From: Alloascoidea africana
Taxonomy: Eukaryota; Ascomycota; Alloascoideomycetes; Alloascoideales; Alloascoideaceae
Assembly: GCA_030581615.1 (NCBI GenBank)
Contig: JAKTTT010000026.1
Span: 186,001 to 250,000, forward strand
Direction of reading: 5' to 3'
Length of the DNA stretch: 64,000 nucleotides
The translations under genes were made by a program, and so were the position numbers. Shown here in pieces: positions 9,994-58,578 of this stretch. Every line of letters starts with the position of its first letter. Position 1 is the stretch's first letter. The notes beneath the pieces were generated by a model. That model had not been told where the DNA came from. It ran no database searches and saw only the letters and a program-made list of their open reading frames with translations.

Positions 9994-10260
9994 GCGGTAC
10001 ATAGCGGCTTAGTAATACATCACGTGTGCCCGCGGTGGCTTTTTTTAGCGCTGGCGGCTGCTCCAGCGAACCCACCTCACCACTCACCACTCCCTTCCAG
10101 CCTTCCACCGCTTCACTTCTCGTCGCCCACAACCAAGCACTGTTGCACAGAGGAAAGCGCTCCTCCCCCATCGCGTGCCGTTACCTATCCGTCTCCGTTT
10201 CCACATCCATTTCCATTTCATTTTCCATTTCCATCTCCGGCTCTCGCAAGATTCCTCGCC

Positions 10261-10779
10261 ATGCAGCCGAATCGTCCTGAGAAACCTGGAAACCACCCTC
10301 CTTCCAGTAGACCCCCAAAGAATTTGCACATCGCCCACCGGCGATCGCCTTCTGAGTTGACGACCCTGATGAGTACGTCTATTATTTGCTTTGCCATCCG
10401 TATTTTTGTCTTCACGCCGCTGTTTCACGTGTTCTAATCCTCCACCTCCTTTCTAGTCGAGCAATTCAACCTCCAGAGGCAATTGGAGTTTGTCCAGGCG
10501 CAACATCAGCAGCTGCTTGCGCAACAACAACAATTGAGCCAGGGCTACATACCTCAACAACAACCGGGCCTGGTTCCAGTCTCCAACCCCAATACCAATT
10601 CCTACTTGCCTGCCACTGGCGCATTTGGCCAATTCACCACCGTCAATCCTGCCCCCCTCCCCTCTGTAAATGCCAGCCACAGAAGAGCCCATTCTTCTAT
10701 TCCCACAGGCTCATTGGGCCCGCCTCAAAACATGTTTGACAGATCTCGTAACCTCGGATCCAATTTGCAAGACTCCCAA

Positions 10780-14976: not shown

Positions 14977-17247
14977 ATGAAGTTTGGCGAGCATCTGAAA
15001 ACGTCGTTGATTAGGTAAACTCCTTGTGCTGTATAGATGTGGAGACAATAAGCAAACTAATAATTTTTTTTCTTTCTTTCTTCTTCCAGAGATTACTACT
15101 ACTACTACATCTCATATGACGATTTGAAAAATGAGCTGAAGGAAGGTCTGGCCAAAAACACAAACTGGTCCCAGGAGCTGGAGGAAAAGTTTTTGGCGTT
15201 GCTGGAAAACGAGTTAGATAAGGTCTACACGTTCCAAAAGGTCAAGACTGGCGAGATAAATCGAAGGATTAAGGATTCGGAAAGGGATGTGAACGAAGTG
15301 GTTGAGGCCATCGGCTCGTCTACAGCACATCCCCCAGATGAACAGGACTTTGAGGATTTGGAGGAAGAACTCTCGGACATTATTGCTGATGTCCACGATC
15401 TTGCCAAGTTCACGAGACTGAATTACACAGGTTTCCAAAAGATTGTGAAAAAGCATGATAAGCAAACAGGCTGGATACTAAAACCGATTTTTTCTGCACG
15501 GTTGAATGCAAAGCCCTTTTTCAAAGATAACTATGACGTTTTGGTCGTCAAACTGTCCAAGCTGTATGACTTGGTGAGAACAAGAGGGAACCCTGTCCGT
15601 GGCGATTCAGCAGCTGGTGGCTCCCAGCAAAACTTTGTACGGCAAACGACCAAGTATTGGGTTCACCCTGATAACATTGCCGAGTTGAAACTGATCATTC
15701 TCAAGCATTTACCTGTTTTGGTCTTCAACACAAACAAAGAATTTGAAAAAGAGGACTCTGCAATCACCTCAATCTACTATGATAACCGGGATTTGGACCT
15801 TTACTACGGTAGACTCCGGAAAGATGAAGGTGCAGAAGCTGTCAGATTGAGATGGTACGGCGGTATGAATTCTGACACAATTTTCGCTGAGCGTAAGACA
15901 CACCGTGAAGATTGGACCGGAGAAAAATCCGTAAAGGCAAGGTTTACCCTAAAGGAGAAAAATGTCAATGCATTCATGAAAGGTACATACACCGTGCCAC
16001 AGGCATTTGAAAAAATGCGAAAGGAGAAGAAAAAATCTCTCAAGGAGATTGAGAGTTTGGAAGCTCTTGCGACTGAAGTCCAGTACTCTGTTCTCACTAG
16101 AAGACTTCGACCTGTGGTTCGTTCTTTCTACAACAGAACCGCGTTCCAATTGCCCGGCGATGCCCGTGTCCGTATTTCACTCGATACTGAGCTGACAATG
16201 GTCCGTGAGGATAACTTTGATGGTCACGATAGGACGAACAATAACTGGCGACGAATGGATATTGGAATCGACTACCCGTTCAACCAACTACCCGAAAAAG
16301 ATGTCTGCCGATTCCCCTATGCAGTTCTCGAGGTTAAACTCCAGACCCAGATGGGACAGGAACCTCCCGAGTGGGTTCGCGACCTTGTCAGTTCGCATCT
16401 TGTCGAGGCTGTTCCCAAGTTCTCCAAGTTTATCCACGGTACAGCGACTTTGCTCCCAGATATGATTGATTTGATCCCATTCTGGTTACCCCAGATGGAT
16501 ACAGATATTAGAAAGCCTGTGAACCCCAACTACGGTATTGAAAGAGCCATACACAGTGGGTCCAGCCGTGGAGATGACGACTCGAGCAACGAGTTGGACG
16601 AGGAGGAGGCATTGGGCGGTACTGGATATGGCAGTATTGGAAATCGACAACGAACAGTCCGTTTCTCAAATGAGGATAACTACGAGCCCGAGGAGATTGA
16701 TGGAACGTATTTGGAATCGTCCTCCATAATGCCATTGTTGAATTCCCGTTCTCCAGCAAATGGAGCAAGCCATTATCTATCTCCTTTGTTTTCCTCTGTT
16801 GGCTCTGGGCTTTCAAAGTTATCCAAGGTCATCCAGAGCTTTCTCCTTGACAACAGGTCCTTTGGTGGTGCCGATGTTGTTTACGAGTCCAGATACCGTG
16901 CTCCTCCTGGCAAAAAGATCTGTGTTCCTGTTCGTGTCGAGCCCAAGGTCTACTTTGCCACAGAACGAACTTTCCTGTCCTGGCTCTCAATTGCTTTGGT
17001 CATTGGCGGTACCTCTCTTGGGTTGTTGAACTATGGAGACTCTTCTGCTCTGGCTGCCGCCGTTGGGTTTTTCATTACTGCTGTGATCACGATTCTCTAC
17101 TCAACGGTCCTTTACGTTTGGAGAGTCTTACAGATTAGACAAAAACGAGCTGTTCGATATGACGATCGCGTTGGCCCCACATTTATTTGCATTGCTCTGG
17201 CCACCTCTACTCTGCTCTCTTTTGTGTTCAAATTTACGAGCCATTGA
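14977..17247 (+). CDS. VTC4: Vtc4, polyphosphate polymerase subunit of the vacuolar transporter chaperone, two exons
   Basis: Catalytic subunit of the VTC complex, which makes inorganic polyphosphate from ATP at the vacuolar membrane and moves it into the lumen. Exon 1 is 14977-15014 and exon 2 is 15090-17247. The 75-nt intron splits an Arg codon and restores [26 protein letters not shown], of which the first part alone (MKFGEHL) is diagnostic. The product is 731 residues. It contains an SPX domain (about 1-150, inositol-pyrophosphate sensing), the tunnel-shaped polymerase domain (about 195-490, with [22 protein letters not shown] and AVLEVKLQT), and three C-terminal membrane helices of the DUF202 type (about 640-725). 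Similarity to the Saccharomyces protein is high throughout. The upstream CACGTGGG suggests phosphate control. Confidence 0.97.
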
Positions 17248-18251: not shown

Positions 18252-19082
18252 TTTGCTATTCGAGAAGGGTGAGGGAGTTAAGAACAAGGAGAAGAAAATA
18301 GGTTTGCTGATGGAGGTGGATTATTTCGATCCTTGCTTCTGGGAAATGGCGCTAAATTCGGTTCCAATTGCTAATGTTGCAGCCAGTGCCGAGGAAATGG
18401 AAATGGGAATCGACATGAGGATCCTCCTGATTCTCATCTACGCAATATTGGACTGGCCTCGGTTTTTGGCTTTGATACACACATATACTGACAGATTCAG
18501 AAGCAATTGTACCCAAGCGTCTTATTGTACGGGCCTATCAAACTCTACACGTCGCGTGGATGTGAAACAAGAGAAATCACAAAAAAAAAATTCCTATTGT
18601 AGTACTTCTACTAAATCTCTGATAGCTCTGGGAAACGGCGATGGCTATAAATTTGGCCCGGCTCGGCCGCAGGTCAAACCAAACCAGGAACAAAATGGAG
18701 TCAATCGAGAGGCTGGAATCATAATAGCGATAACAAATTGATCATTCTAGATCCTCGGAAGAGCCGACCAAAGAGAACAAACATCAAGGTGTGACGTAAT
18801 ACAAATCAGGACTCTGGTTACTGACCACTAGCTCAGAATCTTTGAGAGGCAAGAGAAGTGAAAAAAAAGCACAAAGCACAAAGCACGAAGCACAAAGCAA
18901 CAACAACATATGAAATAACATGAATAGAGACAGTTAAAGGCAAAAGTGATACCACGATTTGAGGAGGACATTATCATACAACATGTGTCTACATGAAAGG
19001 TTGCGTTATGCTGACGGACAAAAAGAAAATCAAAATCTTGGAACTATTGGCTGTGCTTATGAAGATGAAGACTCGAGGCGAT
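18252..19082. other. Upstream region of the reductase gene, with a 7-bp tandem repeat
   Basis: Spacer of 830 nt between two minus-strand genes. It carries five near-perfect copies of the unit GCACAAA at 18869-18903. A 162-codon open frame (18253-18741, plus strand) overlaps this promoter but shows no domain and has a patchy composition, so it is not called. Confidence 0.5.
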
Positions 19083-19585
19083 TCAGTAGTAGGAATAGCT
19101 GCTTGACGGTTGCCAGATATCCTTCTTGTAGTTCGAGGTCAGGTCCGAGTCTTCGCCGTAGGAGGCTTGCCACTCAGTGAACCCACCCTTGAGCACATAG
19201 ACATTCTTGGAGGCCAGGCCGTCCAAATCGCTCAAAATCTGGGTGTACTTGCTTGCGGCAGAGGGCCCACGCTGCTGAGAAAGCATGCAATGGAAAACCA
19301 CCACCGGGATGTTCTCGGTCTCGCTGATCAGCGTGGACACGTTCGCGAGAAACTTGTCATAGGGGTAGTGGAGCGAGTTTTTGATGTGTCCCTAGATGGA
19401 GAAGGAAGCCAGAAACATGTTAGTGAGCATACACCGCGAGGGACCAAGAGCGTGGCCGCAGCCCGTACCCCAACATAGTCGTAGTCCCTGACGTCCACGA
19501 CCACGAACGGCCCGTCAGGACTCGCGCCGTCGCGGATCCACTGGTGCAGCGCGGTCTTGTCGATGAGTTTGTACCTGAGCGACAT
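19083..19585 (-). CDS. YCH1: Ych1/CDC25-like rhodanese-fold phosphatase, two exons
   Basis: Small single-domain rhodanese-fold phosphatase. Exon 1 is 19585-19469 and exon 2 is 19391-19083 on the minus strand; the 77-nt intron (donor GTACGG, branch CTAAC) joins DYDYVG to GHIKNS, the conserved DYxGGHI segment of Ych1. The product is 141 residues, close to Saccharomyces Ych1 (148). The active-site loop is HCMLSQQRGPSAA, with the catalytic cysteine at C74 and the phosphate-binding arginine at R80 (CX5R), identical over this stretch to the yeast protein. The physiological substrate is not known for the family. It is divergent from the PDC-like gene, with 168 nt between start codons. Confidence 0.9.
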
Positions 19586-19654
19586 GGTGACTTGTGGAGA
19601 AGACAGACCGCAGATACTGGCGGACCTGCCCAGACCTGCCGCATCCGGGGAGAT

Positions 19655-19675
19655 CACGTGCCGTGGGGTCACGTG
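19655..19675. promoter_or_regulatory. Paired CACGTG E-boxes in the YCH1/PDC-like divergent promoter
   Basis: Two TCACGTG-type motifs (19655-19660 and 19670-19675), spaced 15 bp centre to centre, midway between the two start codons. CACGTG is bound by Cbf1, Tye7 and Pho4-type bHLH factors in yeasts. The sites are seen; the factor is not identified. Confidence 0.5.
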
Positions 19676-19753
19676 CTCCCCGTGCGAGTGCTTCTCTCCT
19701 CCTCGCGGCCTGGGCTGGCGGCTCCACGACGGCTCCACGACACTCCCACCGCC

Positions 19754-21520
19754 ATGTCTCGAGTCCCGCTGGGCGAGTATCTGTTCCGGCGCATTGCGCA
19801 GCTGGGCGTGCGGTCTGTGTTCGGCGTGCCCGGCGACTTCAACCTCCAGCTGCTGGACTACATCTACGAGGTGCCCTCGCTGGCGTGGATCGGCTGCTGC
19901 AACGAGCTGAACGCTGCCTATGCCGCGGATGGCTTTGGCCGGATCTCCACGCTGCCCGGCGTGCTCATCACGACCTACGGTGTGGGCGAGATCTCGGCCA
20001 TCAATGGCGTCTCGGGCGCCTATGCCGAGCAGTCGCCCCTTCTTCACATCGTGGGCACGACGGCAAGGCCCGCCCAGGAGAGCAGCCTGATGACCCAGCA
20101 CGTTATCCCAAGCAGAGGAAGAACTCCCCCGAACCACAGGGTCTACCAGGACATGTCTGCGCCGGTAAGGTGTGCGTGCGAGTTTCTGATGGACGAGGAA
20201 TCCGCTCCCCGCCAGATTGACGACGTGATTGTCGAGGTATGGCGTAAATCGCAGCCGGGCTATCTCTATATTCCAGTGGACATGCCCTGGCGAGAGGTGG
20301 ATGCGAGCCGGTTGGAGATACCCTTGCCGCTCTGTATTTCGAATCTCGAAGAAGATCTTGAAGACGCGCTTGTCGAATCGATTCTGGAATCCATCTACTC
20401 TTCTCAGACCCCTGTCATTCTGGTCGATACCTTGACCGAGAGGCACAGAGCAACGGCCTTGGCCAGAACGCTGGTCTCAAAGACAAAATTCAACTCTTTC
20501 ACAACGTTGTTGGGGAAGGGCATCATCAACGAAACCGATCCGCAGTTCGTGGGAGTTTACAATGGCAGTTTGTCGTTAAGAGGCATTGTTGAAACGGTAG
20601 AAACCTCGGATCTGGTGATTAACATTGGGCCCCTTCTCTCGGATTCGAATACAGGCGGCTTCACTCGCAACATTAAAGAAGAAAATCTGATTATTCTCCA
20701 CCCAGATTACATCTCGATAAAAGGTGACCATCACCACAACATTCATTTTCACCCAGTATTGGAAAAAATGATCGATAAGCTCGATACTTCTAGGCTGCCA
20801 CGACATGTTTTGAAACCTTCCGTAGCGCCTCCTCCAGAAGTGCCTTCAAAAGCAGACATTTCTCAATCCTATTTCGTAAAAGCAATTTCATCGTTTCTTC
20901 GAGCAAATGACATTTTCCTTACGGAAACTGGCACCTTCCAGTATGCTCTCCCAGATGTCGAATTTAGAGCAGACACAAGATCAATAACCCAAATTTTCTT
21001 TTCGTCTATCGGTTTTGCCCTACCTGCAACACTGGGTGCGGCAATGGCGCAACGGGACTTTGGTCTTCCCGGACGTGTGATTCTTGTGGAAGGGGATGGC
21101 AGTGCCCAAATGACAATCCAGGAGCTGGGCACAATGATCAAACTGGGGCTCACCCCCGTGATTTTTCTCATAAATAATGAGGGATATACTATAGAGAGAG
21201 CGGTATGGGGCCCCAACAAGTCGTACAATGACATTTGTCCGAAATGGAAATGGACAGAACTGCTAAGTGCTTTTGGAGGTGATAAGGATGTAAATATATT
21301 CTCGACAACCGTGGCTACGAGAAACGAACTAGAGACTCTGTTGCAAGATCCTGCATTTGTAAAAACTGACAGGATCCAGTTGGTTGAGGTGATTATGGAC
21401 GTTCTGGACATACCATGGAGATTGAGTGAACAAGTCAAAGCTCAGGGAGAAAAAAATAAAAATATGTATGAGGAGTACGCACGGAAGAAGAAGAAAAGAC
21501 CAGTTTCTGGGACCCAGTAG
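19754..21520 (+). CDS. Pyruvate decarboxylase-like ThDP enzyme with an altered active-site His pair
   Basis: A 588-residue thiamine-diphosphate protein of the PDC/Aro10/Thi3 family. Numbering matches Saccharomyces Pdc1 at the N-terminus: D28 (VPGDFNLQ) and the cofactor-activating E51 (CNELNAAYAADG) are present. The Mg/ThDP-binding motif GDGS...NNEGYTIER is intact, including the Glu of the TIE segment. The conserved HH pair (His114/His115 in Pdc1) reads QH, and the following loop is longer (VIPSRGRTPPNH). So it may decarboxylate a different 2-oxo acid, or act as a Thi3-like regulatory protein. The first 550 nt are GC-rich (65%), the rest much less so. No peroxisomal or mitochondrial signal is evident; a cytosolic protein is likely. 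Confidence 0.8.
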   Translation: MSRVPLGEYLFRRIAQLGVRSVFGVPGDFNLQLLDYIYEVPSLAWIGCCNELNAAYAADGFGRISTLPGVLITTYGVGEISAINGVSGAYAEQSPLLHIVGTTARPAQESSLMTQHVIPSRGRTPPNHRVYQDMSAPVRCACEFLMDEESAPRQIDDVIVEVWRKSQPGYLYIPVDMPWREVDASRLEIPLPLCISNLEEDLEDALVESILESIYSSQTPVILVDTLTERHRATALARTLVSKTKFNSFTTLLGKGIINETDPQFVGVYNGSLSLRGIVETVETSDLVINIGPLLSDSNTGGFTRNIKEENLIILHPDYISIKGDHHHNIHFHPVLEKMIDKLDTSRLPRHVLKPSVAPPPEVPSKADISQSYFVKAISSFLRANDIFLTETGTFQYALPDVEFRADTRSITQIFFSSIGFALPATLGAAMAQRDFGLPGRVILVEGDGSAQMTIQELGTMIKLGLTPVIFLINNEGYTIERAVWGPNKSYNDICPKWKWTELLSAFGGDKDVNIFSTTVATRNELETLLQDPAFVKTDRIQLVEVIMDVLDIPWRLSEQVKAQGEKNKNMYEEYARKKKKRPVSGTQ

Positions 21521-38596: not shown

Positions 38597-40150
38597 ATGC
38601 CAACAAATACTTCGACTACAGGTACGGATGCTACCAAAAAGCCTGAACAGCCCAGACCTTATAAATGTGTCACATGCTCTAAGGCCTTCCATAGATTGGA
38701 GCACCTGCACCGTCATATAAGAACGCATACAGGCGAAAAACCACACCATTGCCAGTTTCCAGGGTGCGGGAAGAGGTTTTCGAGATCTGATGAACTTACA
38801 AGGCACTTGAGAATACATACAAATCCAAGTTCTAGGAGAAACAAAAGTAGTAACAATTTGAACAGCTTTGCGTTTCAGCAGATTGGGGTTCCGGTTAACG
38901 TCCAGCAAAACTTGAATCTTGACTACCTCAACTATCAACTGTACCAACAGCAATTACAGCAAATGCAACAAATGCAACAACCAGTACAAGCGGTTCCACC
39001 GGCAATGGGTTGCTCAACGCGGCAGATGGTGTTAAACGGGCAACCAGTGTATATCATGACTCCTTTCGTTGCATCAACTAACCCACCTGCTGCAAATCCG
39101 GTTTTCATTTCTGGAGAAGGTCAATACCCTGGTGGACCCGTTACGCATGCTGGGCCTGAACAGCCTTCAAACCAAGCGTTTACGTTCACCCCATTTCAAA
39201 ACTATCCCTCCTCTGCGCCTTCTGGATCAAACCCTTGCTTGAGAAATGGTAATGTTACATTGCCTCCCTTATCTACAAAGATTCCTGAGGTTCAAGCTCC
39301 TGTTCAGCCGTCTAGACCCCTATCTAGATCTCAGCCGACCTCTCCTCCCTCAAGCTCCATGGCAACTCCATTTTCAATGTCACCCATTCTGCCTGAAAAG
39401 AAGCTGGTGGGGGTTGCCAAATCTTCCGCACAAGTGGCTACAACTCCTTCATTGGAATCTTTGAACGTCAACAAGTCTTATCCATCTCTGTCAAGCTATT
39501 TTTCCACCGCAAACAGCTCTCATACAAACTCTTATGCTTCTTCGGCCTCGGGGTCTGCATCATCTTCTGCATTCACAACCCCTTCATCCTCTGTTACAAC
39601 CAGTGGCACATGGATGAAAGACTTACTGGCATCCAACTCTAGTATTTCTAGATCCTCCTCCTCCAACCAGCTACCCCATATCAATGAGTTATCGCCTCAT
39701 TCTCGACCGCACCCACATAACGTTTTGGCTGGCTTACAACGTTTAACTCCGCTTAAACAGATTTTGCCTACAGCTGACACTACTGATACACAAACTTCGC
39801 CTGTCTTAGTTCAGTGTTCTGATGTTAATGACCTTCCCTTCAGAAACAAGAGAACTCGACCCAATTCGCCTGTGTTTACTGTTCCTAATAGCCCTTCCCT
39901 ATATGCCTCTGATCTGCATACATCATCTCACCACAAATCCAGTGCTGCAAACTCACCTTTCGCACATACTCCCTTGGTCACACCCAGCCAATCTCCAAAG
40001 TTAAGGCCACAATCGTCATCTGAACTTTCTCTTACCTTTAATAGTGCAAATAACCCGCCTGGATTGGCGTTGGATATTGTCAAAGGGAAGAGGTCTGACT
40101 CAGAGCCTCGCAGAGTAGGTATCTCTGTGTCAGATTTGATCAATAAATGA
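38597..40150 (+). CDS. MIG1: Mig1-type C2H2 glucose repressor
   Basis: A 517-residue repressor with two N-terminal C2H2 zinc fingers: finger 1 C24, C27, H40, H44 and finger 2 C52, C57, H70, H74, separated by the THTGEKPH linker. The recognition helices ([14 protein letters not shown] and [14 protein letters not shown]) are those of Mig1/CreA, which bind GC boxes in front of genes repressed by glucose. The rest is low-complexity Ser/Pro/Gln-rich, with NVL-A-L[10 protein letters not shown] (about residues 375-390) resembling the Mig1 effector region and a conserved C-terminal segment ISVSDLINK. Snf1 would phosphorylate it, and Tup1-Ssn6 would be recruited to it; both partner genes (GAL83, TUP1) are in this window. 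Confidence 0.85.
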
Positions 40151-40819
40151 ACAGACATAAACGTATAGATTTCTATTAATTTGGGTAATGCTTAGATCAT
40201 GTTGAATACCATGGAACCCTTTTTTTTCTACTTTGGGTCTTGGTTTTTGGGGGGTTTTATTATCTGCTGTCTTGCTGTTGTTGTTTTTTTCATGTTTGTT
40301 GAAATTGACGTCTATCTTTGGTACGTGGCTCTTTCTTTTTCCTGAAGCTCTGACAAGTGCGCCAGTAATGATTTTTTTTCTTTGTTTCATATTTATTCAA
40401 GTAGGACAAGCTATATTAATGAGTATTAGAGCAATCTACAAGTGTATTATTATTAAGGTCTATCTATGTGTACCGAGAATATAGGAAATAATTATTTATT
40501 ACTCTATCAAGGAAACCTTCAGAGATAATATGATACAAGGGATGTGGCGATATTTAATTAATCGGCTAAGTGAAAAGTGTAAGTAAGCAATCATCTAAAC
40601 ATTTTTAACGCCATAGTTGTGATAGCACTTGTGTGCTCGGCCAGTTAAATAGATATACGGATACTTTCCCGAGAAAAAGGACCAAAAGATAGAGAATGAA
40701 CTTGAGCCACCGTCATTTTGTGTTTATTCCCACGGCCTTGTAGAAAATTAAAAGTTGGTAGGTTTTCGTGGGGGTACAAGGCTTTGAAGGCAGGGTCCAC
40801 GATACGATACATTCTGAGC

Positions 40820-40894
40820 CTCGGTAAGTGGGTTCGCTAGTCAATTCGTTGGGCAAATAATTATCTCGGTAAGTGGGGTGAGTGAATTATTTGC
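40820..40894. repeat. Short direct and inverted repeat cluster
   Basis: CTCGGTAAGTGGG occurs twice (40820-40832 and 40865-40877). The second copy lies inside a 10-bp inverted repeat, GCAAATAATT at 40853-40862 and AATTATTTGC at 40885-40894. Confidence 0.6.
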
Positions 40895-42651
40895 GACCTT
40901 AGAAATGGCCCCAAAGGTCCGTCTATAACAGTTTACTTTTTTGATCACACAGCATACCCAAATGTGTCACCAGTTCTGATAAAGCTAAAGAACAATCTTC
41001 ATTCGTTCTGGACCGATTTTGTTTCAAATCTAGTTTTATTGCCATTTAATTATAAGGTTTTAGTTTTATCAAGTTCCTGAAGATCACCGTTCAGCGCCAA
41101 GAGAGGTAATTCTGTTTCTGAGAACATCAAGATCTTTTTCTGAATGTTTGTTTGATTTTACAAAAAGCTATAGTTGACGATGAGCAACTCATACAAGAAT
41201 TGCTCTTTATTTTCAAGTTGTAGGAAATGCACGTTTTTACTCTTTCCCTGTATTTGCATGTTTAATGTACAACTCAGTTCTCAGTTATTAGTATCCAGGT
41301 GTAATCAGCAGAACACAAAGCCAAAGTTTGTACTCTTACAACTTTTTTCTGACAATTAAAATCACTTGCAATGTTTTCAGGTATCTTTCCTTTTATCAAT
41401 TTACTTGCAACATACAGACTGAAAGCAACGCATCTATTATAGTTGTGTGCTGAACGACTAGAAGCTGTGTAGAAGTGATTGCCATCGGTTAGTAGAAGTG
41501 ACCGCAAGATCTAAGCTAAATTCCTAGCGGCTTCTAGGTTTCTTAAGTAATTACTAAGTCGTAGCAGTCATGAAAAAGCATTCATTTATTGAGAAGAACG
41601 CTCACTTTTCTTCACTGGGATTCAATAGCCTCAGTCCCCTTCATGTATCTAATATCTTCAACACTTCTGTGGTTCAAAAAGCATAGAGTACAAATAATCG
41701 GTTTCTGGCTAAAGAATCTCCATGATGGACTGAATCTGAAAAGCAAAAAGTAGAATGCAAGGGTGAAATCTCAAGAAACTAGTGTATGATGAGTAAGTGA
41801 AACGGTTCAAGTGTTAGCATAGATCAAAGTAAATGCATTTTACAGATTCTTAAGATCAACCACGTTTTAAAAATTTGATAATAGATTCGATTTCGCATGA
41901 TCTTCGCCCAGCTGAAAGACTATGATAGCCATAAACAAAGAAGCATCTTACAGAATCGAATTTACAAGATTTTGTTTGACACAAGGATAGGATTCAGGTT
42001 TCAAAAAACTTCCCCTTAGCTTTTGATAAATTAAAGAGAAAGCGTTTAGCTAGAGCAAATAATTAGGCATCTAGGATAAAAGTAAGCAAATTGATAATCC
42101 ATACAATGTTATCAACCTCTTCATTTAGTAACCCGCTTCACATCTTTTTCTAGACAGGAGGGTTTTGATATTTTTGATCTAAAATAACACCATCATAGGC
42201 CAAATCCTGAAAACTAGATTCTATTCCTTTACTATCTATATGACTATGCAACATACCTGATGGCTCATTCTTCTTTTGAATCTGATGATATTCAATTCCA
42301 GATAAGTAGTCGTTGAAATGTTGAAAAATTCCATATCAATCAGAAGGAAAGACATTAAGGAACTAAGTATTAACCAAGAACTGTTTTTGAACTTATGTAT
42401 GCTTTCGACCTCGGTATTGTATTGTACGCATCTTTAAAGAAGAGCCCAACTATTAATTAAAGAGACGGGCATAATCCAAATTGTGCTTTGTTCCTTAGAA
42501 TTGAGGTTAGTCTTCTTTTAATAATCGAACAACTTTTATCTTGTTCTTGTACCTTTTTTTTTTTGATCATTTATATCATGTGAATCGTATCTTTTGAATA
42601 AATTTTTGCTGTTACAGAAACAATCTTGTTCATAAACATTCATTTCGTTTG

Positions 42652-42723
42652 TTTGCGTACTGGATTCATTGTAGATCCTGTCAATTAGGGTGGTGGTGTC
42701 AAGCCCATCATCCAGTACGCAAA
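42652..42723. repeat. 14-bp perfect inverted repeat
   Basis: TTTGCGTACTGGAT at 42652-42665 and its exact reverse complement at 42710-42723, separated by 44 nt. It could form a cruciform or an RNA hairpin. No gene is nearby. Confidence 0.75.
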
Positions 42724-44266
42724 AGATCCCAGGGTCAAAAGAGTGTCAGGGTGTGGTGAAGTGGTACAAAGATCTCTTCAGTTCTGACATTAGACTGCCT
42801 TTAAACCGGACTGTGAATGACCTTCAGCTGGGGTTCTGCAAGAGCCCTCGGAATCTTGGATATGTATCGCCAAGATCTAAGGTGTTTCCTTTGATCGCTT
42901 ACTACTGAGGAGGACGGCGTTGAGAATTAACGAGTAGCTTGATGTTTAACTACTTAGTGGGAGATATGGCCCTTTTATATTCACATTTTTTCGGACCTTG
43001 CCAATCCAGTTTGGTTGTGTACTGCTACCGACCGGGTCTATTATCAATGCACCCCATGCAAAATCATCGAACACCTAATCTTTTCCCATTTTTAGAAAGG
43101 AATCAAAAAATATACAGCGTAATTCTATGGGTTTTGTCTCAGATAGTTAAATACAGTAACTAACTACTGTCTGATGGCGGAGATGGACTATCATTTTCAA
43201 TTTGTGATCAAATCATTTCTCGAATGTAACGGTTCGGTGAGCTATATGTTCACGACTCACACACTTTTCTTGATGATTCCTCTATTGCTATGTAGGAACT
43301 AGGATATTTATATGGAGGAAAGCCTTGGCTGAAACCGGGATGCCATTACTCAGGGACATCCGTATCCTAACATCGAAGCTATTTTGCAAAATACTCGCCA
43401 TTTACCCCCTAATTCTTTCTCTATAAGGAACATACCTGGGATATTTTATCAGAGTTAGGCAAGAATTGAATGCCCCGAATCTCAGGTTTATACTATTTAA
43501 CCAATTATAAGGCTATTGTTTTAAGAAGAGTTAAAGGAGGGACTTTGGCTTGAGCTTTGACATGATGCCAGTAGCAGAAGTGATAATTTCTATAGTGTCG
43601 CTGTCTTCTTTTGTGCTTTCTTGGCCAGGAAATCCAACTCATCCTATTATCTACTAGTGCTATCAACAACCAAGAGCCGAGATGATCATTTCATTCAAAC
43701 TTTTCGGCATCATATAAAATTATTGAAAAGTTCAGGGCTGTTAACTATCAATTTTTCTCACATTCTTCAGCAAAACCTCCTTCCCTTTGTAACACCTTTC
43801 AATAAAAAGATGTCACCATCCAAATATAACGAATACTTGCAGGCAGAAGCTCCAGCACAAATCTTCCAGAGATATCAGGACGGCACTAAAAAGTATGGAT
43901 GTTGATCAAATTATTGGACATGGAAAATGAACCAGAGAATTTGTATTAAATGTTCAAAACAGCCATCATGGCATATTAGCTACAAGTCAAAAACAGTGAA
44001 ATTTTAGCTTATTATAAGAACACTAGTCCAGTCTAGCTGTTCTTATCTTTCTTTGTTCTTCTTAATTAACTTTTTTTATTCTTTTCTTTTTCTTCCTTGT
44101 CCCCTTTTTCTTTAGGGAGACCCGGCTCTTTTAATTAGTACTTCCAAAATATCTAAATCAACTATACATTATCCTAAATACACTTCGTGCCACATGATTG
44201 CATGTTCTGAAGTATCATTACAATTAGAAGATCTGGTTCAGTATGGTTCTTTCAATTATAATAACT

Positions 44267-44340
44267 GGTCTCTTGGCCCAGTTGGTTAAGGCACCGTGCT
44301 AATAACGCGGGGATCAGCGGTTCGATCCCGCTAGAGACCA
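44267..44340 (+). tRNA. tRNA-Ile (anticodon AAU)
   Basis: A 74-nt cloverleaf without intron. The acceptor stem pairs GGTCTCT with AGAGACC, the D-arm contains GGTTAAGGC, the anticodon loop CTAATAA gives AAU (read as IAU after editing), and the T-loop is TTCGATC. It appears to match the Saccharomyces tRNA-Ile(AAU). It is encoded without a 3' CCA, as in eukaryotes, and is followed by a T-run terminator. Confidence 0.97.
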
Positions 44341-44344
44341 TCAA

Positions 44345-44356
44345 TTTTTTTTTTTT
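44345..44356 (+). terminator. RNA polymerase III terminator (T12)
   Basis: Twelve Ts starting four bases after the tRNA-Ile 3' end. Confidence 0.85.
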
Positions 44357-45272
44357 GCATTGGATACAGCATTACGATTATGAGGAACAGGCTTCAATTG
44401 GTTGAAAAAGGCTGTCTCATCCAAGATTTTGAGTGTGCCTACTGTGGAGCGACTGTTATATAATTCATTAGGCTGATTTCCAGTATTTCTATACTAAAAA
44501 AGTTTTCTGGTCTAGTGCTTTCTTCACTCAACTGATGTATGGAAAGCTTTGCTCTCAAGCCACATTGTACCTCTCCATGCCTGGCCCGGGCCTTCAGTTC
44601 ATTCACCAAAGGCAAAATGAAACATTTTTCTTTTAGTGTATTTATCTATTTTCTACTTTGGTTCTTACCATACACAGATATGAACAAGACCCTAAATCTT
44701 GTCACCTGTTTGGGGGTGGAAAGTTAATCATCCAGAAACTGTAGGTTCCGAAAGCCTTAGTGGAGTCTTAGGAATGAGACATTTGGGGATTTAGTAGAGA
44801 AAATCAAGTGGCTTGAGCTTTCCTCGGTTTTATTTGAAAGTAGGCTTAAAATAAGATCACCATCTCAAGCAATCGTGTTAATTCTTGGTATATATTTTAC
44901 CAACCATTATTCGATATTTTTAGTTAAACACGGATCAGATACAAAACAAGCTTTAAACAGCCTTTCGAATAGTCGTCGCTAGATTCTATTCATTTGCAAA
45001 TTCGAACCACAGCTCGCCTTTTGTAGAACCGATGACACTGAAGACTAGATCAGTAAAAGTGGTCACTTTCTCACATATACAGAAAAATCTCGGTACGATA
45101 GAAATGTTCTAGTTCCAGACCTCAATAAATCTGAACCAGAGATTTTCAAATAATGAGGTTCAAGATCCGTTTTAAGGTCAAATCAGAGCATACATAACCT
45201 AAAAGGCGTTCCTCAATTAATCCACGAAAAATACCTGAAAGCACAAAACAATCTAACCAAGTAAATAACAAA

Positions 45273-46188
45273 TCAGCCTAGAAACATTGCTAGTAAGATG
45301 ACAAGAAGAACCACAACTAGAATCATCAGCAAACAGAAAGATTTCCCTCTCGATCTCTTCTGGTAAAAAGCGGCTTTGCTCAATTCAGAAGCAGCATTTC
45401 TGGTAGAAGATGCAACCTGATATATGTTGGATTCAATGTTATCTACAATGTGACAGAAATGTTAGTGGTCGATGTTCAAGAAAAACTTTCGCCAGCTAAT
45501 AGCATCAAACGACCAGATACTCACCAACAATCGTCCCCTGTTCTACCACGATTGTCCCCAAATCAGTAAAGATTTCATTCAACTCTAGAATTCCTTGCTC
45601 TATATTCTGGATTTCTTCTTCTCTTTCAATTATTAAAGCCTGCTGATATTCTAGTTCTTGTTGATCCAGCTGTTCTTGTTCCAACAACTGTGCTTGCTCA
45701 GGACTATTTGCATCTATTATTGCGCCACCATCTGTGTGATGCGACTGCTCAGTATCCTGTATCACGGTTCTCGCCTCTAGTACTCTTTCCTTCTCATGCT
45801 CTGTAAATCGACTCTGTAGAGCCTGAAACTCGTTAAAAGCTCCTGATATTTCTCTTCCTAATTTCTGTATTGTAAAGCGTTGGGATGGGGATACATCATC
45901 CCATTCTTTCAGTTGCTTGCTAAGCTCACCCAAATGCCTGAACTTTGCTCTCGTATTTTCTAATAGTGCTAACGTTCTATCATGAACACTTAGCTCTACA
46001 GAAGAGCGTTGACCAGAAACCGTTCGAGATTGGCTAGAAGATAGAGAGTCCATAAACTTGGTCAGAGAGACCAGGCCTGTATTCACCTCAAACAAATCAT
46101 TTGAAATTGATTCAGCCAGAGAATCAAACTCGGGTGAGTCTGAAAATGCAGGCTGAGATTCCAAAGACACCGCATCGTTAAAAGACAT
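45273..46188 (-). CDS. PEP12: Pep12, endosomal t-SNARE (Qa syntaxin), two exons
   Basis: Syntaxin for fusion of Golgi-derived vesicles with the late endosome. Exon 1 is 46188-45525, exon 2 is 45442-45273; the 82-nt intron (donor GTGAGT, branch ACTAAC) splits an Asp codon and joins EQGTIV to DNIESNIYQVASSTRNA, in the middle of the SNARE motif. The product is 277 residues (yeast Pep12 is 288). It has an N-terminal Habc-type helical region (about 20-130), a SNARE helix (about 185-245: LIIEREEEIQNIEQGILELNE-type) and a C-terminal membrane anchor (CLLMILVVVLLVILLAMFL). The unspliced frame stops after GEYLVV and would lack the anchor. Pep12 is preferred to Vam3 and Tlg2 from the SNARE core. Confidence 0.9.
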
Positions 46189-46306: not shown

Positions 46307-47483
46307 TTACTCGTCCTTGTCTGCTTCTTTTGCAGAGTTTACAACTTTTCTTGTACTTTTTGTAGTTTCCTGTGATTCATCTTCGTCACTCTCAACACTT
46401 TTGGGGTTTGAGGGTTGTGGCCGTAGTTCCTGGGTCTTCTCTTCACCTTTGAGAAAGATATGATAGCTGAAGACAATTACTACCATCGTAAACAGGCCTA
46501 TTATAACTTCTTTGTTTTGCTGTAAAATCTGCTGGTCAAATATTGTTGGCGGGTCCTCCTTAACTGGCAGGTTATGTCGTTTTGGAGGGAAAAACCTTTC
46601 CTTGGACTCCTGGCTCTCATGCTTGTTTTTTTGAACCTCCATGCGAGCTGATTTTTTGCCTGTTATATCTGGGAAAATTCGTTTGGGGAGCTCTTCATCG
46701 GGAGGAGTCTGTCCCCATTCAACATCGTCAAACTGTTCAGCAGGAGAAACGGTTGTATAATAGATGCTGTGATATGGCGATGGGATTTTTCTAATAACGT
46801 CTCGGAGCAACTCATCTATGACCTGTTAGCTTTGCGGCGCGCTGTGATTGTTCATAGTACGTACCATTTTCTTTTAGCACTTCCTTTCTCAAGTACTCAT
46901 TCTCCGGCAATTCTGGCATATTTATCCGAATAACTCTTTTCCTTGTGTCTATGTAATCTTCCAAATGGTCTGGGTCTTCATCCACTATGACCAACTCAGC
47001 ACGACAGTTTCTGATAGCATACTTTTCAATTGCATTTATGTTCAGGATGCCATCAACGTCTGGAATCGTGAGAATTGTAGAAGCTTGTTCTAAGTAGTTC
47101 CTCAAGTTCATAAATATCTCATTTTTTTCTCTCAGGTTTATATTTGTAAAGTCCGAGATTCTCAGTCCTGGTTGGTTAACAATGATGTAAGCATCTGAGG
47201 AGCAAGGGGCAATCAGTCGCCGTGAAAGTGTTTGTAACGTTGAAACTGGAAAATGAACAGGCTTAGGGTCCGGGATATGCCGTAGAAAAGCCGGGACTCT
47301 TATCCAAATGAGAACGTGTTAGCAAGAAAGTAAGCACAAAAAGCCCAAAAAGCGTTCTGACTTGGCAAGAAAATATTTAGCTTACAGCCGGTGTGAAAGA
47401 AATAGTGCGGGAACAGCAGAGACCAGAGAACTGAGGCATGAGACGAGCAAAAAGATTGAAAGTGCGCGGTCCCTTGTAAGCAT
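46307..47483 (-). CDS. BIG1: Big1-like ER membrane protein, three exons
   Basis: Candidate Big1, an ER membrane protein needed for normal beta-1,6-glucan synthesis. Three minus-strand exons: 47483-47386, 47298-46865 and 46815-46307, with introns of 87 nt (donor GTAAGC) and only 49 nt (donor GTACGT, branch GCTAAC nine bases from the acceptor). All joins are in phase, giving 346 residues (yeast Big1 335). Exon 1 supplies a clear signal peptide, LSIFLLVSCLSSLVSA. The luminal part has CSSDAYIIVNQPGLRISDF, YIDTRKRVIRINMP and, across the second splice, KENDELLRDVIRKIPSPYHS. A single membrane helix (EVIIGLFTMVVIVFSYHIFL) near residue 285 and a charged cytosolic tail follow, a type I topology. The splice structure is well supported; the Big1 name is from remembered family features. 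Confidence 0.65.
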
Positions 47484-49105: not shown

Positions 49106-49357
49106 GAAAATCCAAGCTTCTCATCAGACTTGTTTGGGTGTTGTGTTGTTCAGGTTCAAGCTCAAGGGTATCAAACCTGTAGCAGAAGTTGATATCACAG
49201 ACTTGAATTTGATTCGAACTAATCTAGAAAAACGTTCATGGTTTTAACGCTCTAAAAAAGCATCCAGATCGCGTCATGGAAAAACTAGTGCGATTAGAGA
49301 CACAGGTCTGAGTTACAACACCTTCCTCTTTCGTACATAAATCTATATAATGGGTCG

Positions 49358-50640
49358 TCATTCCCGCGCGCCACGCTGAAGCGCTCTTGTGATTTTGTAG
49401 TAAAACTGTTGTGACTATGAGAAAAGTTTGTCAGCACTTTGCCATAAAAAGAAACACAGATGGCACTCACGGTATCTATTGGGAACGTTAAAGAATCCAG
49501 AAAATACTCCGGAAGTACACCCTTCCACTGTTCTTCTTGAGCAGGATCTATGTCTGGCACATATGTAATCTCTTTGCCTTCCCCATTTTCTTCTTCTCCA
49601 TCAGAGTCTCCCCGTGGAATGTACAATTTGTAGTCAAGAGCTAAGCACATGTTAGTTAGACCCGGATGCTTCTTCAAAATCAATTTCTTACCTCCATTTG
49701 GGCCTGAGTGTGTGCAGTCATAAACAATATAGGCATCTGTAATTGTGGTGTCATGCACTTGTAAACCACATAGAATTAGCATAAATTCATCTTTCAAATC
49801 CTGAATAACCTCGGTCATTCCTATTCCTTCATTTTCAGACTTGAGCCGAGCAATTGTGGTTTCATTATCTTTAAGAATACTTTCAAGCATTGAAATCCGT
49901 TCCCTTAACTTTGCATTTTCTTCTTTCAATGATGGGTTTGAATCTGCTGGAGGTTCCTTCTGCGTCTTTTCTTGCATTAGCCGTCTATTTTTCATTAAAA
50001 TATTGTGCTTCTCTTCCTCTAGCATAGTTAGTTTGTCAACGAGCGAGTTAACGAGGGAGTCGGATGCACTTAGCCTTGCATCCATCTTGACTCGATACTC
50101 CCGAAGTAAAGACTCTGAAGCACTGTCTTGTAGATTATTCATGATCAATTTTAACGATGTGCCGCTAATTGGGGGGAGTTTGTCCAGAAACATTTCTGCA
50201 ACTTGCGATTGCCCATCTACACTCGTATCAGCTTCCTGCTCAGGCGATTTCTCACCATTAACGGTGTTCCTGGACTGTTGTTCAGTCTTGTTTCCTTTTA
50301 TCGGAGTGTCATTACTGTCAAAAGTTTCATTCGGTTTTGTACTATCTGATATTAGCTCAGGAGACATTTCTCTTGTTTTGGACCTAGTAGATCTAGTGGT
50401 TTCAGTGGCAAAGCTCTTTGCTTTCCGCTTTCGCGTCTTACTACCCTTGTTTTCATCAATTTCTGTTGCCTTTTCCTCTCCTGGTTCTGCACATGGACTC
50501 GCTTCATTGGCTTCCACCTTGGGGTCCAAATCCTGCTCTGACGCGGCAGCTTTTTGCGACCTCTTCGAAGCCCGCGTATTTCGTGGTTTTGCAGTCGCAG
50601 TGCTTTTTTTAGCAGCCGTTGCCCTCTTTTTCGGCGGCAT
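49358..50640 (-). CDS. CSM1: Csm1/Pcs1, monopolin-complex subunit, two exons
   Basis: Kinetochore and rDNA organiser: Csm1 dimers with Lrs4 clamp sister kinetochores in meiosis I. Exon 1 is 50640-49471, exon 2 is 49414-49358; the 56-nt intron (donor GTGAGT) lies inside the globular domain. Splicing gives LPEYFLDSLTFPIDT joined to SQQFYYKITRALQRGARE, matching the end of yeast Csm1 (LPEYLFETLSFPLSSLNQFY). Without it the frame runs on into unrelated residues. The product is 408 residues, about twice yeast Csm1 (190), owing to a basic disordered N-terminal tail of about 150 residues (PPKKRATAAKKST) before the coiled coil (about 190-275). In-frame ATG 50661 is an alternative start. Neighbour ESC2 is head-to-tail, TUP1 divergent. 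Confidence 0.85.
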
Positions 50641-50697
50641 CTGTGAATATGGTCCAGGCATAAACAGTTGCACATCGAAGCTATCTTATGTTTACGC

Positions 50698-50705
50698 CAC
50701 GTGAC
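50698..50705 (+). promoter_or_regulatory. CACGTGAC motif in the CSM1/TUP1 divergent promoter
   Basis: A CACGTGAC site (Cbf1-like E-box) within the 184-nt spacer, 127 nt before the TUP1 start and 58 nt before the CSM1 start. Confidence 0.4.
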
Positions 50706-50824
50706 ACTGAACACCCGCCCACCCTTTGCTAAACCACTTCACTCGCAAGCCCTTTTATCTTGTTCATCTATCGCTTGTCAACATTTTTCACCGTGCATAG
50801 TCGAGAGATATTGCTAGTTTTGCG

Positions 50825-52675
50825 ATGTCGTACCAACAGCGCCCTGTAATACGCCCCAACCACCTTGGGGAGTTGCTCGATGCTATTAAGCAGGAGTTTG
50901 ATAATGCGACGAACGAAGCTTCGGTATATCGCATGCAGCAGAATGACTTTGACCAGAAGGTGTCCCAACAGACTGCTGAGATACAACAGATTCGTCAGAC
51001 AGTGTATGAGCTAGAAGTGACTCATAGAAAACTAAAAGAGCAGTATGAGGAGGAAATTATGAGATTGAAACGAGAGATTGAGGCAAGGGATAGGGCAGCT
51101 GCTAATGCCCAGCAACAGCAACAGCAGCAGCAACAACAATCACAGACAAACCACACACAGCAGGCCCAGAGAGACCAGAATCCTCCTCCTTCATTCCACG
51201 CCAGTTCAAATGTTTTGGGAAATATCATGTCCGGGAACTCTGGTCCAGGCGGACCAATCCTCCCCCCTCACCAACAAGCTAACCAAACACCTCAACCTAA
51301 GCCCGAGCTTCACCAACCCCAGCAACTGGGGCTCCCTGGCCAGTTGACTCAACCGCAACAAGGTCCTCCATTTGGACAACAAGCCACACAACCCCCAAAC
51401 CAAGTTCAGGCTCAGGCTCAGGCTCAGGCTCATGGCCAGCCTGTTTCTGTCCCAGCTACGGCCCCTCTGATTGAGACCCCTCAACAGCCCAATCAACAAC
51501 AACCTCTCCAGGCACTTCAGCCAATCGCTAATGGAAACGGCATCGCGCAAAAACGGAAGAGAATTCAGACTAATAACGGGATAATACCCCCTTATTTAGA
51601 GATGGATGTAAATACAATCCAGGCGCCCATGAAGAAACAGACAGATGACTATTACGTTATTTTCAACCCCGACTTGCCAAGGCGTATTGATATCGAAATG
51701 GTTAACTCCCTAGATCACACGTCTGTTGTTTGTTGTGTCCGCTTTAGCAAAGATGGCAAATTTCTGGCAACCGGTTGCAACAAAGCTACACAAGTCTTTA
51801 GCGTCGAGACAAGCGATATTGTAGCAAATCTTACTGACGAATCTGCAGGACCTGGGGCTGTAGACATGACTAATGTTTCTCCTTCTGGAGATTTGTATAT
51901 CCGATCTGTTTGTTTTTCTCCGGACGGAAGACTTTTGGCTACTGGTGCAGAGGATAAACTAATAAGAATTTGGGACTTGACAACAAAGAGAATCATCAGA
52001 TATCTTCGTGGGCACGAGCAAGACATTTATTCATTGGACTTTTTCCCAGATGGAAATCGCCTTGTATCCGGATCCGGTGACCGAACAGTTCGCATCTGGG
52101 ATTTAGAGACTGGCCAGTGCAGTCTTACTCTAAGCATTGAAGACGGTGTCACCACTGTTGCTGTCAGCCCCGAAGGCTCTCTGATTGCCGCTGGGTCTTT
52201 GGACAAGACTGTCAGAGTTTGGGATGCCTCAAATGGTTTCCTTGTTGAGCGTCTTGAAAGCGATAGTGAGCTAGGCGATGGCCACAGAGACAGTGTTTAC
52301 AGTGTCGCCTTCACCGCAAATGGTAAAGAAATCGCATCTGGAAGTTTGGATCGAACGGTGAAACTTTGGTCTTTAGCTTCTTCTTCAAACTCTGGAGCTG
52401 CCAGCACTTGCGAAGTATCATACATTGGACACAAGGATTTTGTGCTCTCTGTGTGTACTACTCCAGGAGACGAGTATATACTCTCTGGCTCGAAAGACAG
52501 AGGCGTGATGTTTTGGGACAAAAAGACAGGAGACAATTTGCTCATGTTGCAAGGTCATAGAAACAGTGTTATAAGCGTTGCTGTTGCGCCGAATAGCGAC
52601 CATAATGGTGGCCTTTTTGCAACTGGTAGTGGTGATTGCAAGGCCAGGATCTGGAGATGGTACAGGGCCATTTAG
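50825..52675 (+). CDS. TUP1: Tup1, general transcriptional corepressor
   Basis: A 616-residue corepressor that forms the Tup1-Ssn6 complex and is brought to promoters by Mig1, Nrg1 and others. The N-terminal tetramerisation helix (about 8-85: [15 protein letters not shown], then a heptad pattern) binds Ssn6. A Gln/Pro-rich middle (about 95-250) holds a polyglutamine run and a QAQAQAQA repeat and includes the histone-interacting region. The C-terminal WD40 propeller covers about 285-616, with seven repeats such as [30 protein letters not shown] and [15 protein letters not shown]. No intron is evident. Confidence 0.97.
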
Positions 52676-56745: not shown

Positions 56746-58578
56746 TCAAGGGCATTCAACAGTTTTGCATGTTTTTGTAATAGTGGTCAACGTAGTTTTT
56801 TGCACTGGCGTAGGGCAGTCGGTTTCGGTGACAGTGGTGTAGGTCGTCTTTTGAGGCGGAGGTGTAGGACAGTCGGTAATGGTGATTGTGCCTGCCTTTG
56901 TAACGGTGACAGTGACTCCATCATTCAGCACTATCTTTGTGGGCTCGGGGCAATAAGTGACATAAGTGGTGTAGTACCTTGTAGTGTAGGTAGTGTGATA
57001 ATGAGTGTGGTCGTCGTCGTCGTCGTCATTATCATCATCGTCGTCATTATCATCATCGTCATCATCATCTCCAGGATCGGTTCCGTTATCATCATTATCA
57101 TCGTCGTCATCATCGCCATCATCGCCATCATCGCCATCATCATTATCATCATTATCATCATCATCGTCATCATCATCATCATCACCAGGATCGGTTCCGT
57201 TATCGTCACCAGGATCGGTTCCGTTATCATCACCAGGATCGGTTCCGTTGTCATCACCAGGATCTGTGCCGTTGTCATCACCAGGATCTGTGCCGTTGTC
57301 ATCGCCTGGATCTGTGCCGTTGTCATCGCCTGGATCGGTTACATCTCCAGCACCGTCATCGTAGATTTCAGCTTTGATCACTATAGGAGAAGTAGCAATT
57401 CTCACTGGAATTGTGTGCGTATAGTTCATTGGGAACTTTTTAGCCTCCATTGTATAATACGGTCCAGATCCTATTTCGCCTTCTTTGGCCTGGCGAATAT
57501 AGTATTCAAAATACAGAAAGTCAAGAGTTGCGAAATCGACGTTTGATGTGAGAGTCTGGGGAATATCATAGACGACATATCGAAGCCCCTCCTCAGGCCC
57601 AAATGAATACTTGATAGAAACGGCTTTTGTAGAGCATTCGATTTCAGCCAAGGCATGTTCCTCCTCGCTATAAGCAATATCTTTTGGATAGCCCCAGGCA
57701 TTATAGGTGTTTGAGGTACCGACTTTGATCTCATCACAGTTTATATCAAAGAGATCACCTTCCTTTTTCTCGTATAGGAAAGTAGCATTGGTGTTATTAT
57801 AGCCAGGAGTACCTGCATAAATATGAAGACTAGGGTCTTCAAAGTTCGAGGTGAGAACATATGCTTCGTAATTCAAATAATACGTTCCAAGACGTCCAAC
57901 AACAACCCCGGTTTGGTCGTAAGTATTTTCTTCGGTTTTTACTCCGAATTCCATAACTATTGGCTCAAAGAACCTGGCAAAATAGTAACAGTCATCTTCA
58001 TGTTCTTTCAAGCGCGCTGTGATTGCAAGAACACCTTTGGATCCATAACTTTCTTCTGGCTCTCCAACAATGAGAAAGCGGATTGAATGGCTTTCTTCGT
58101 TGTAGAAAACATTGAGCACGTCTTCCCCTTTTTTGTTGGTTATTGTACGTCCAATTGGGGGAATATCGATTACATCGTCTGGTAAAACAACATCAAAAAA
58201 AGTGTCTTTTTTCAAAGTGTTAGGGAGCTGGAAGAAAATTTGAATTGCAAACCACCCACTAGGGTGCTCAGTTACGCTTTTGAGTGTGTCATAGTCATGT
58301 ACAAGAACAGCAGTGATCACATCAGAAAGCCCTTCCTTGTCGATTTCGTTTGAAGGCGACAAAGTAGGCACGACATCAGGGCATAATGGACGAACAAAAG
58401 GTCCATCAACAGCGCCCACTATATAATCAGTGTGAGTGTACTCATCATCATCTAGAACACTTGGGTCAGGAATTGGGTAAGTAGTAGTTGGGGTATCATT
58501 CTCGTCGGGCATGGGAGCAGCAATTGCGGCTTGTGCAAGCACAAGCGCAATTGCACAAAATTCTGCAAAGAGCTTCAT
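56746..58578 (-). CDS. Secreted Asp-rich repeat protein, adhesin-like
   Basis: A 610-residue extracellular protein of unknown function. It begins with a signal peptide (MKLFAEFCAIALVLAQAAIAA). Residues about 60-400 form a beta-rich region with two-domain character; segments such as DTFFDVVLPDDVIDI and SKGVLAITARLKEH resemble the immunoglobulin-like folds of Als adhesins and staphylococcal Sdr proteins, though this is only a pattern impression. A 24-bp repeat encoding TDPGDDNG (six full copies, each making an NGT glycosylation sequon) leads into Asp/Asn-rich runs. The C-terminus is Thr-rich with TYCPEPT, TDCPTP and VECP motifs typical of yeast wall proteins. It ends at VECP with no GPI tail, so wall attachment, if any, is by other means. 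Another in-frame ATG at 58668 would disrupt the signal peptide. Confidence 0.7.
   Translation of the reverse strand: MKLFAEFCAIALVLAQAAIAAPMPDENDTPTTTYPIPDPSVLDDDEYTHTDYIVGAVDGPFVRPLCPDVVPTLSPSNEIDKEGLSDVITAVLVHDYDTLKSVTEHPSGWFAIQIFFQLPNTLKKDTFFDVVLPDDVIDIPPIGRTITNKKGEDVLNVFYNEESHSIRFLIVGEPEESYGSKGVLAITARLKEHEDDCYYFARFFEPIVMEFGVKTEENTYDQTGVVVGRLGTYYLNYEAYVLTSNFEDPSLHIYAGTPGYNNTNATFLYEKKEGDLFDINCDEIKVGTSNTYNAWGYPKDIAYSEEEHALAEIECSTKAVSIKYSFGPEEGLRYVVYDIPQTLTSNVDFATLDFLYFEYYIRQAKEGEIGSGPYYTMEAKKFPMNYTHTIPVRIATSPIVIKAEIYDDGAGDVTDPGDDNGTDPGDDNGTDPGDDNGTDPGDDNGTDPGDDNGTDPGDDNGTDPGDDDDDDDDDDNDDNDDGDDGDDGDDDDDDNDDNGTDPGDDDDDDDNDDDDDNDDDDDDHTHYHTTYTTRYYTTYVTYCPEPTKIVLNDGVTVTVTKAGTITITDCPTPPPQKTTYTTVTETDCPTPVQKTTLTTITKTCKTVECP
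57005..57345 (-). repeat. 24-bp minisatellite and GAT-rich tract coding TDPGDDNG and poly-Asp/Asn
   Basis: Tandem 24-bp units at about 57190-57340, with variable GAC/GAT runs at about 57010-57190. Coding on the minus strand, and reading frame kept throughout. Likely to vary in copy number between strains. Confidence 0.85.

Follow-up and report, generated by a model that had tools for sequence, protein, structure and literature searches.

A 5.1-kb gene-free gap between convergent genes of Alloascoidea africana as a candidate small regional centromere

Candida auris and Clavispora (Candida) lusitaniae belong to the clade of yeasts that translates CTG as serine. In C. auris, the minima of GC content and of GC content at third codon positions (GC3) coincide with the centromeres mapped by Cse4; its regions free of open reading frames (ORFs) measure 2.1–2.6 kb, and C. 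lusitaniae centromeres have a mean length of 4.3 kb (PMC8262905). Putative centromeres of Blastobotrys adeninivorans lie in GC troughs of ≈6 kb, one per chromosome (PMC4022394). The mapped centromere spacers of two Wickerhamomyces species span 2.2–9.3 kb and 3.7–7.9 kb, and the centromeres of Hanseniaspora menglaensis, located by Hi-C, are described as featureless, with no feature common to all; the same source calls the centromere structure of most budding-yeast orders underinvestigated (PMC12711049). Here, we describe a gene-free gap of 5.1 kb in a 64-kb window of Alloascoidea africana contig JAKTTT010000026.1; the window is the whole stretch that was analyzed, and all window-level minima and counts refer to these 64 kb. 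We propose that this budding yeast, which uses the standard genetic code, has in the gap a candidate small, featureless regional centromere, a reading to which we assign a probability of about 0.45.

Extent and composition of the gap

The gap and its flanking genes were defined as follows (the basis of each assignment is given at the end of the line).

38597–40150, plus strand: left flank, MIG1-like C2H2 zinc-finger protein, MIG1 being a putative name (ORF, Pfam)
40151–45272, no strand: gap free of genes and bordered by two 3' ends, candidate small regional centromere (ORFs, gap lengths, coding scores, GC)
45273–46188, minus strand: right flank, syntaxin-like SNARE with coding exons 45525–46188 and 45276–45442, ending at 45273 (Pfam, spliced-gene finder)

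The initial annotation had placed the gap between two 3' ends and had argued that a need for promoters could not explain its size. Both points hold: the zinc-finger ORF on the plus strand ends at 40150, and the syntaxin gene on the minus strand, with intron signals GTGAGT...CACTAAC...TAG and a stop codon just below 45276, ends at 45273, so that neither flanking gene needs the gap for its promoter. It is an outlier in length among the convergent gaps. The other five such gaps, among 25 ORF-to-ORF gaps in all, were 128, 285, 401, 424 and 673 bp long, and the 5.1-kb gap is 7.6 times longer than the longest of these. The longest of all 24 other gaps were 2460, 1894 and 1608 bp, and the 1608-bp one contains coding sequence. 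On a log scale, the gap lies 4.4 standard deviations above the five convergent gaps and 2.6 above 20 others, figures that are descriptive only, the samples being small. For the latter statistic, four of the 24 other gaps were dropped, those of 1012, 935, 468 and 327 bp, of which the first two hold coding-like pieces, and one gap was shortened to 743 bp.

This length is a point against the main rival reading, by which the gap is a long but ordinary spacer that happens to hold a tRNA gene: non-functional DNA, perhaps enlarged by old insertions near the tRNA gene or made of the remains of lost genes, in which only the tRNA has a role. We regard that reading as possible, though somewhat less likely than a centromere. 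The size of the gap fits a centromere, since 5.1 kb falls within the sizes of mapped yeast centromere spacers.

The GC content of the gap is 36.5%, compared to 43.9% for the window. The GC-poorest 5122-bp stretch of the window coincides with the gap (36.4%), while the lowest stretch clear of it has 41.0% GC. Spacers that contain promoters have 43.0% GC.

The genes on either side provided one new independent line of evidence, which gives moderate support to the centromere reading. GC3 was compared for 22 of the 26 ORFs, the four short ORFs without a Pfam match having been dropped, and it tended to be higher the farther an ORF lay from the gap (Spearman rho 0.62, permutation p 0.0014; a rerun with a new random series gave 0.0008). 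When the center was left free to move in 500-bp steps, the six best centers fell between 39.5 and 43 kb, and 2 of 300 permutations were as good at any center. Fourfold sites gave rho 0.57 (p 0.0022; p 0.02 over centers). When the gene order was shifted circularly, 1 of 21 shifts reached the observed GC3 value, and none did so for fourfold sites. The trend persisted when the four genes whose GC3 exceeds 0.52 were removed (rho 0.50, p 0.017, n = 18). The trough is broad, with five-gene means of 0.40–0.42 from ≈30 to 50 kb. Its coincidence with the gap counts against an ordinary spacer.

Genes, RNAs and repeats within the gap

Four features were recorded in the gap.

41469–41501, no strand: 10-nt direct repeat at 23-nt spacing, the sole clear telomerase-template-like feature, probably due to chance (repeat scan)
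42652–42723, no strand: inverted repeat of two perfectly matched 14-bp arms, 42652–42665 and 42710–42723, around a 44-nt loop, in a local GC island (repeat scan, folding)
43561–43905, plus strand: 114-codon frame without stops, the longest wholly within the gap, its last part a 31-codon ATG ORF from 43810 (no Pfam family at cut-off)
44266–44342, plus strand: tRNA-Ile(AAT), the sole tRNA gene found in the window (tRNA search, Rfam)

No protein gene could be detected in the gap. When a spliced-gene finder was trained on the window, its best score in the gap was 14.0, compared to 71.7, 128.6 and 201.4 for the syntaxin, VTC-domain and ANTH-domain genes that were used as controls. The finder recovered the syntaxin intron and assigned two introns to the ANTH-domain gene; it did not pick up exon 1 of the VTC-domain gene, and unusual introns could thus escape it. 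With a phased Markov model, the best open segment in the gap scored 13.1, and 300 dinucleotide shuffles had a median of 11.2 and a 95th percentile of 15.9. For 20 of the 27 stop-to-stop frames of at least 50 codons in the gap, Pfam returned no family at cut-off and weak matches in five frames (best E 0.058); five pieces of the gap had no Pfam match up to E 10. A search of the PDB gave two chance-level matches (E 0.18 and 1.2) for 42675–42905 and none for 43720–43902. Coding at 42720–42899 was considered and dropped: a first codon-usage scan scored 13.0, above the maximum of 12.3 from 20 mononucleotide shuffles, and the segment was unremarkable in the Markov test with dinucleotide shuffles. Two CaaX-like endings, which share a single minus-strand frame at 42236–42355, did not make a convincing pheromone precursor. 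The 31-codon ORF at 43810 has a TATA-like site ≈95 bp upstream, as judged by eye.

As initially annotated, the gap contains a single tRNA gene. Centromeres of Pichia kudriavzevii are ≈fivefold enriched in tRNA genes (PMC6053246), and the cloned CEN1 of Dekkera bruxellensis includes one (PMC4999066). At gathering score, Rfam found nothing else in the gap. A permissive Rfam search added six matches, all below gathering score, the best of which (E 0.004) was antisense to the tRNA, and further permissive searches gave 0, 1 and 1 matches below gathering scores. Folding across the gap was on average no better than for shuffled sequence (mean z −0.04, 256 windows). Together, the Rfam and folding results lend little support to the earlier suggestion of a long noncoding RNA. 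Windows with z below −2 numbered 13 of 256 in the gap and 9 of 370 in the other spacers, and the inverted repeat is the one strong exception to the average. These coding and folding statistics, close to the shuffled level, are in line with an ordinary spacer.

The inverted repeat had also been singled out in the initial annotation, and rightly so: its arms pair perfectly (14/14 bp), and it is the longest perfect inverted repeat of the window at loops of up to 200 nt, the next having 12-bp arms. When the gap was shuffled by mononucleotides, 20 of 2000 sequences had arms of at least 14 bp by chance; for the window, 11 of 200 did. The repeat is an argument for one or more noncoding RNA genes of no described family, which would be centered on the hairpin and GC island at 42.64–42.96 kb on the plus strand. 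On this strand, the RNA folds with z −4.3 (120-nt window at 42621) and z −3.2 (42645–42800), and the local GC content rises to 49%. However, the perfect repeat favors folding as DNA too (z −5.3), the larger unit at 42640–42920 folds no better than shuffles (z −0.93 and −0.06 for the two strands), Rfam had no match to 42580–43020 up to E 5, and a short RNA would leave 5.1 kb unexplained. We consider such an RNA locus unlikely. The repeat itself may belong to a short RNA, act as a dyad that binds a protein, or be the product of chance.

A telomerase RNA gene, which had been suggested as well, would lie on the minus strand with its template at 41501–41469. The direct repeat there resembles a template with repeated ends, and yeast telomerase RNAs, usually longer than 1 kb, are described as escaping homology search (PMC6115765). 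However, we estimate that ≈0.14 such repeats are expected by chance, which places this sole clear template-like repeat within chance. Neither of the longer Sm-site spellings, AATTTTTGG or ATTTTTGG, was present in the gap. The longest runs shared with seven telomere units were 10 nt, at 42749 on the plus strand and 43364 on the minus strand, away from the repeat, and six 14-mers of the repeat were not found by a literature text search. We thus hold a telomerase RNA gene to be highly improbable.

The centromere reading and its rival

We compared the gap with the described types of yeast centromere. It resembles the small regional type of C. lusitaniae and C. auris in three respects: it is an ORF-free region of a few kb, the neighboring genes form a GC3 trough within the window, and its DNA is unique within the window, with a longest direct repeat of 26 nt and a longest inverted repeat of 23 nt (imperfect). 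Further marks of this type are the lowest GC of the chromosome, of which the gap shows the counterpart for the 64-kb window, and Cse4 (CENP-A) occupancy at one site per chromosome. For the point centromere of the Saccharomycetales, no centromere DNA element I (CDEI) was found in the gap, TTCCGAAA occurred once, at 44746, and TTTCCGAAA did not occur. The highest AT content over 85 bp in the gap was 78%, whereas CDEII of that type comprises 83–86 bp of more than 86% AT between CDEI and CDEIII. Centromeres built on inverted repeats, as in Komagataella and P. kudriavzevii, have kilobase-scale arms; those in the gap reach at most 14 bp when perfect and 23 nt when imperfect. A cluster of Ty5 or long terminal repeat (LTR) elements, as in Ogataea and Cyberlindnera, was discarded, there being no repeats above 26 nt and, in 20 of the 27 frames, no Pfam family at its cut-off, a result that is compatible with a single solo LTR in the gap. 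The tandem-motif type of Wickerhamomyces anomalus has 5–9 copies of a 21-bp motif, for which the gap gave one match per strand, each with 6 mismatches.

Several observations weigh against a centromere. The hallmarks based on repeats, elements and motifs were sought in the gap and none was found, a result that an ordinary spacer would share. The other five convergent gaps pooled have 34.0% GC (1911 bases), so that the gap has the composition of promoter-free spacer DNA in the window; its anomaly is its length, not its base composition. The argument from AT-richness made in the initial annotation is weaker for this reason: although the gap marks the lowest GC in the window, the other convergent spacers are just as AT-rich, and this match in composition favors the ordinary spacer. 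Intergenic GC, measured in 20 noncoding stretches of our choosing, showed no distance trend (rho 0.16, p 0.51, n = 20), as would also suit a spacer. GC skew within the gap was not significant (p 0.11), and the ARS consensus (autonomously replicating sequence) had 0 matches in the gap compared to 0.36 expected. The GC3 test was itself conceived post hoc, after other tests. For GC3, 3 of 22 reflected gene orders reached the observed value (none did for fourfold sites), the trend within 22 kb was only suggestive (rho 0.43, p 0.06, n = 14), and the right arm alone gave rho 0.62 with p 0.10 (n = 8). Moving averages over 5, 7 and 10 genes had their GC3 minima at 36.6, 33.3 and 38.3 kb, respectively, all to the left of the gap.

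On the other side, no repeats, retroelement domains or gene relics were found in the gap, which speaks against a spacer made of old insertions or lost genes. In weighing the two readings, we assumed a 12-Mb genome with seven chromosomes, i.e., one centromere per ≈1.7 Mb. The priors for a centromere and for an ordinary spacer are then about even, because convergent gaps of at least 5 kb are otherwise expected to be few. The lack of structural hallmarks is close to neutral, because H. menglaensis, too, has apparently featureless centromeres at the sites that Hi-C located. The balance is tilted slightly towards a centromere by the GC3 trough and the tRNA gene. The centromere suggested at the outset is thus a plausible, slightly strengthened but unproven reading, which gained the GC3 trough and lost part of its AT-richness argument.

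If the gap is a small regional centromere, Cse4 (CENP-A) nucleosomes and the kinetochore would assemble on a few kb of unique, gene-free, moderately AT-rich DNA, and the site would depend chiefly on chromatin and position, not on a repeated DNA element. Genes may be kept out because transcription across the kinetochore is selected against, which would account for a long spacer even where two 3' ends meet. Less meiotic recombination near the centromere might entail less GC-biased gene conversion and so a lower GC3 in the adjacent genes. A novel type of centromere, in which the perfect 14-bp dyad with its 44-nt loop at 42652–42723, and not a CDE motif, an element or a repeat, would mark the place of Cse4 loading within a single-copy desert, in a lineage with unmapped centromeres, strikes us as very improbable.

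The candidate, with its exact borders and flanking genes, is directly testable. The scan for a GC3 center needs one sequence window, and might become a quick screen if it proves valid on genomes with mapped centromeres. To infer the ancestral centromere type of budding yeasts, many more centromere structures will be needed.

Neighboring genes and comparison with described centromeres

Based on Pfam domains, the window encodes a Tup1 protein (Tup_N and WD40), Csm1/Pcs1, Tel2-domain and Dis3-like (SSD1-like) proteins, a VTC-domain protein and the beta subunit of AMPK; any gene name more specific than the domain is putative. CTG codons stand at conserved leucine positions, such as in the Tup1 stretch LATGCNK, which indicates the standard genetic code. 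Introns are present in the syntaxin, ANTH-domain and VTC-domain genes, that of the last having been identified by eye. No relative was found among viral contigs, nor any among genome contigs searched with the zinc-finger protein. Tup1 matched 27 loci in genome contigs, with bacterial titles, and no yeast sequence emerged from the collections searched. A plasmid collection gave no match to 42640–42960, the sole stretch queried.

Some further observations concern the gene list. The TUP1-like and CSM1/Pcs1-like genes lie head-to-head at 49294–52675, with 163 bp between them. TUP1 and CSM1 are near neighbors in Saccharomyces cerevisiae as well, and their proximity in both yeasts would be a very old linkage. 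The VTC-domain gene (14977–17247) apparently starts upstream of the listed ORF; judged by eye, it has a short first exon encoding 13 residues, a first intron with the donor GTAAAC and the branch site CTAAT, and then a long open stretch from 15082. On the minus strand, coding-like pieces without a single ORF were seen at 19086–19648 (scores 27.2 and 18.2; rhodanese-like by eye) and at 46667–47195 (scores 17.4 and 14.2); both are probably spliced genes that a plain ORF list overlooks. The ORF at 56746–58578 has a run of 24-nt repeats at 57005–57378, encoding an 8-residue acidic repeat, and a match to Candida_ALS_N at the borderline (25.4 bits for a cut-off of 25), and is possibly a cell-wall adhesin. 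GC-rich stretches (53–61%, compared to 44% for the window) occur at 5017–5817, 9994–10731 and 18742–20500, with a strong C-skew near 10–11 kb.

Among standard-code yeasts, Kuraishia capsulata is said, in work of Morales from 2013, to have centromeres in GC-poor troughs. Unlike in that yeast, no repeat of 200-bp size is present within the gap, one locus being compared here. The K. capsulata centromeres are short and sequence-defined, with a 200-bp motif repeated on some chromosomes (introduction of PMC12711049). The GC trough of B. adeninivorans is of similar size and also belongs to an intron-bearing yeast, but is deeper, with 31–33% GC in a genome of 48%, compared to 36.5% in a window of 43.9% (PMC4022394). 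With H. menglaensis and Wickerhamomyces canadensis, the gap shares a large intergenic region, placed there by Hi-C and here by sequence; W. canadensis has a 200-bp LTR-derived sequence in 6 of 7 centromere regions, and the main text of that paper does not name MIG1, VAM3 or PEP12 (PMC12711049).

A further resemblance is to the centromeres of C. auris and C. lusitaniae. The A. africana window differs from both in having CTG at conserved leucines and in that its putative centromere is known from sequence alone. What it shares with them is ORF-free, repeat-free unique DNA of a few kb at a local GC minimum, here that of the window, and with C. auris in particular, a GC3 trough (PMC8262905).

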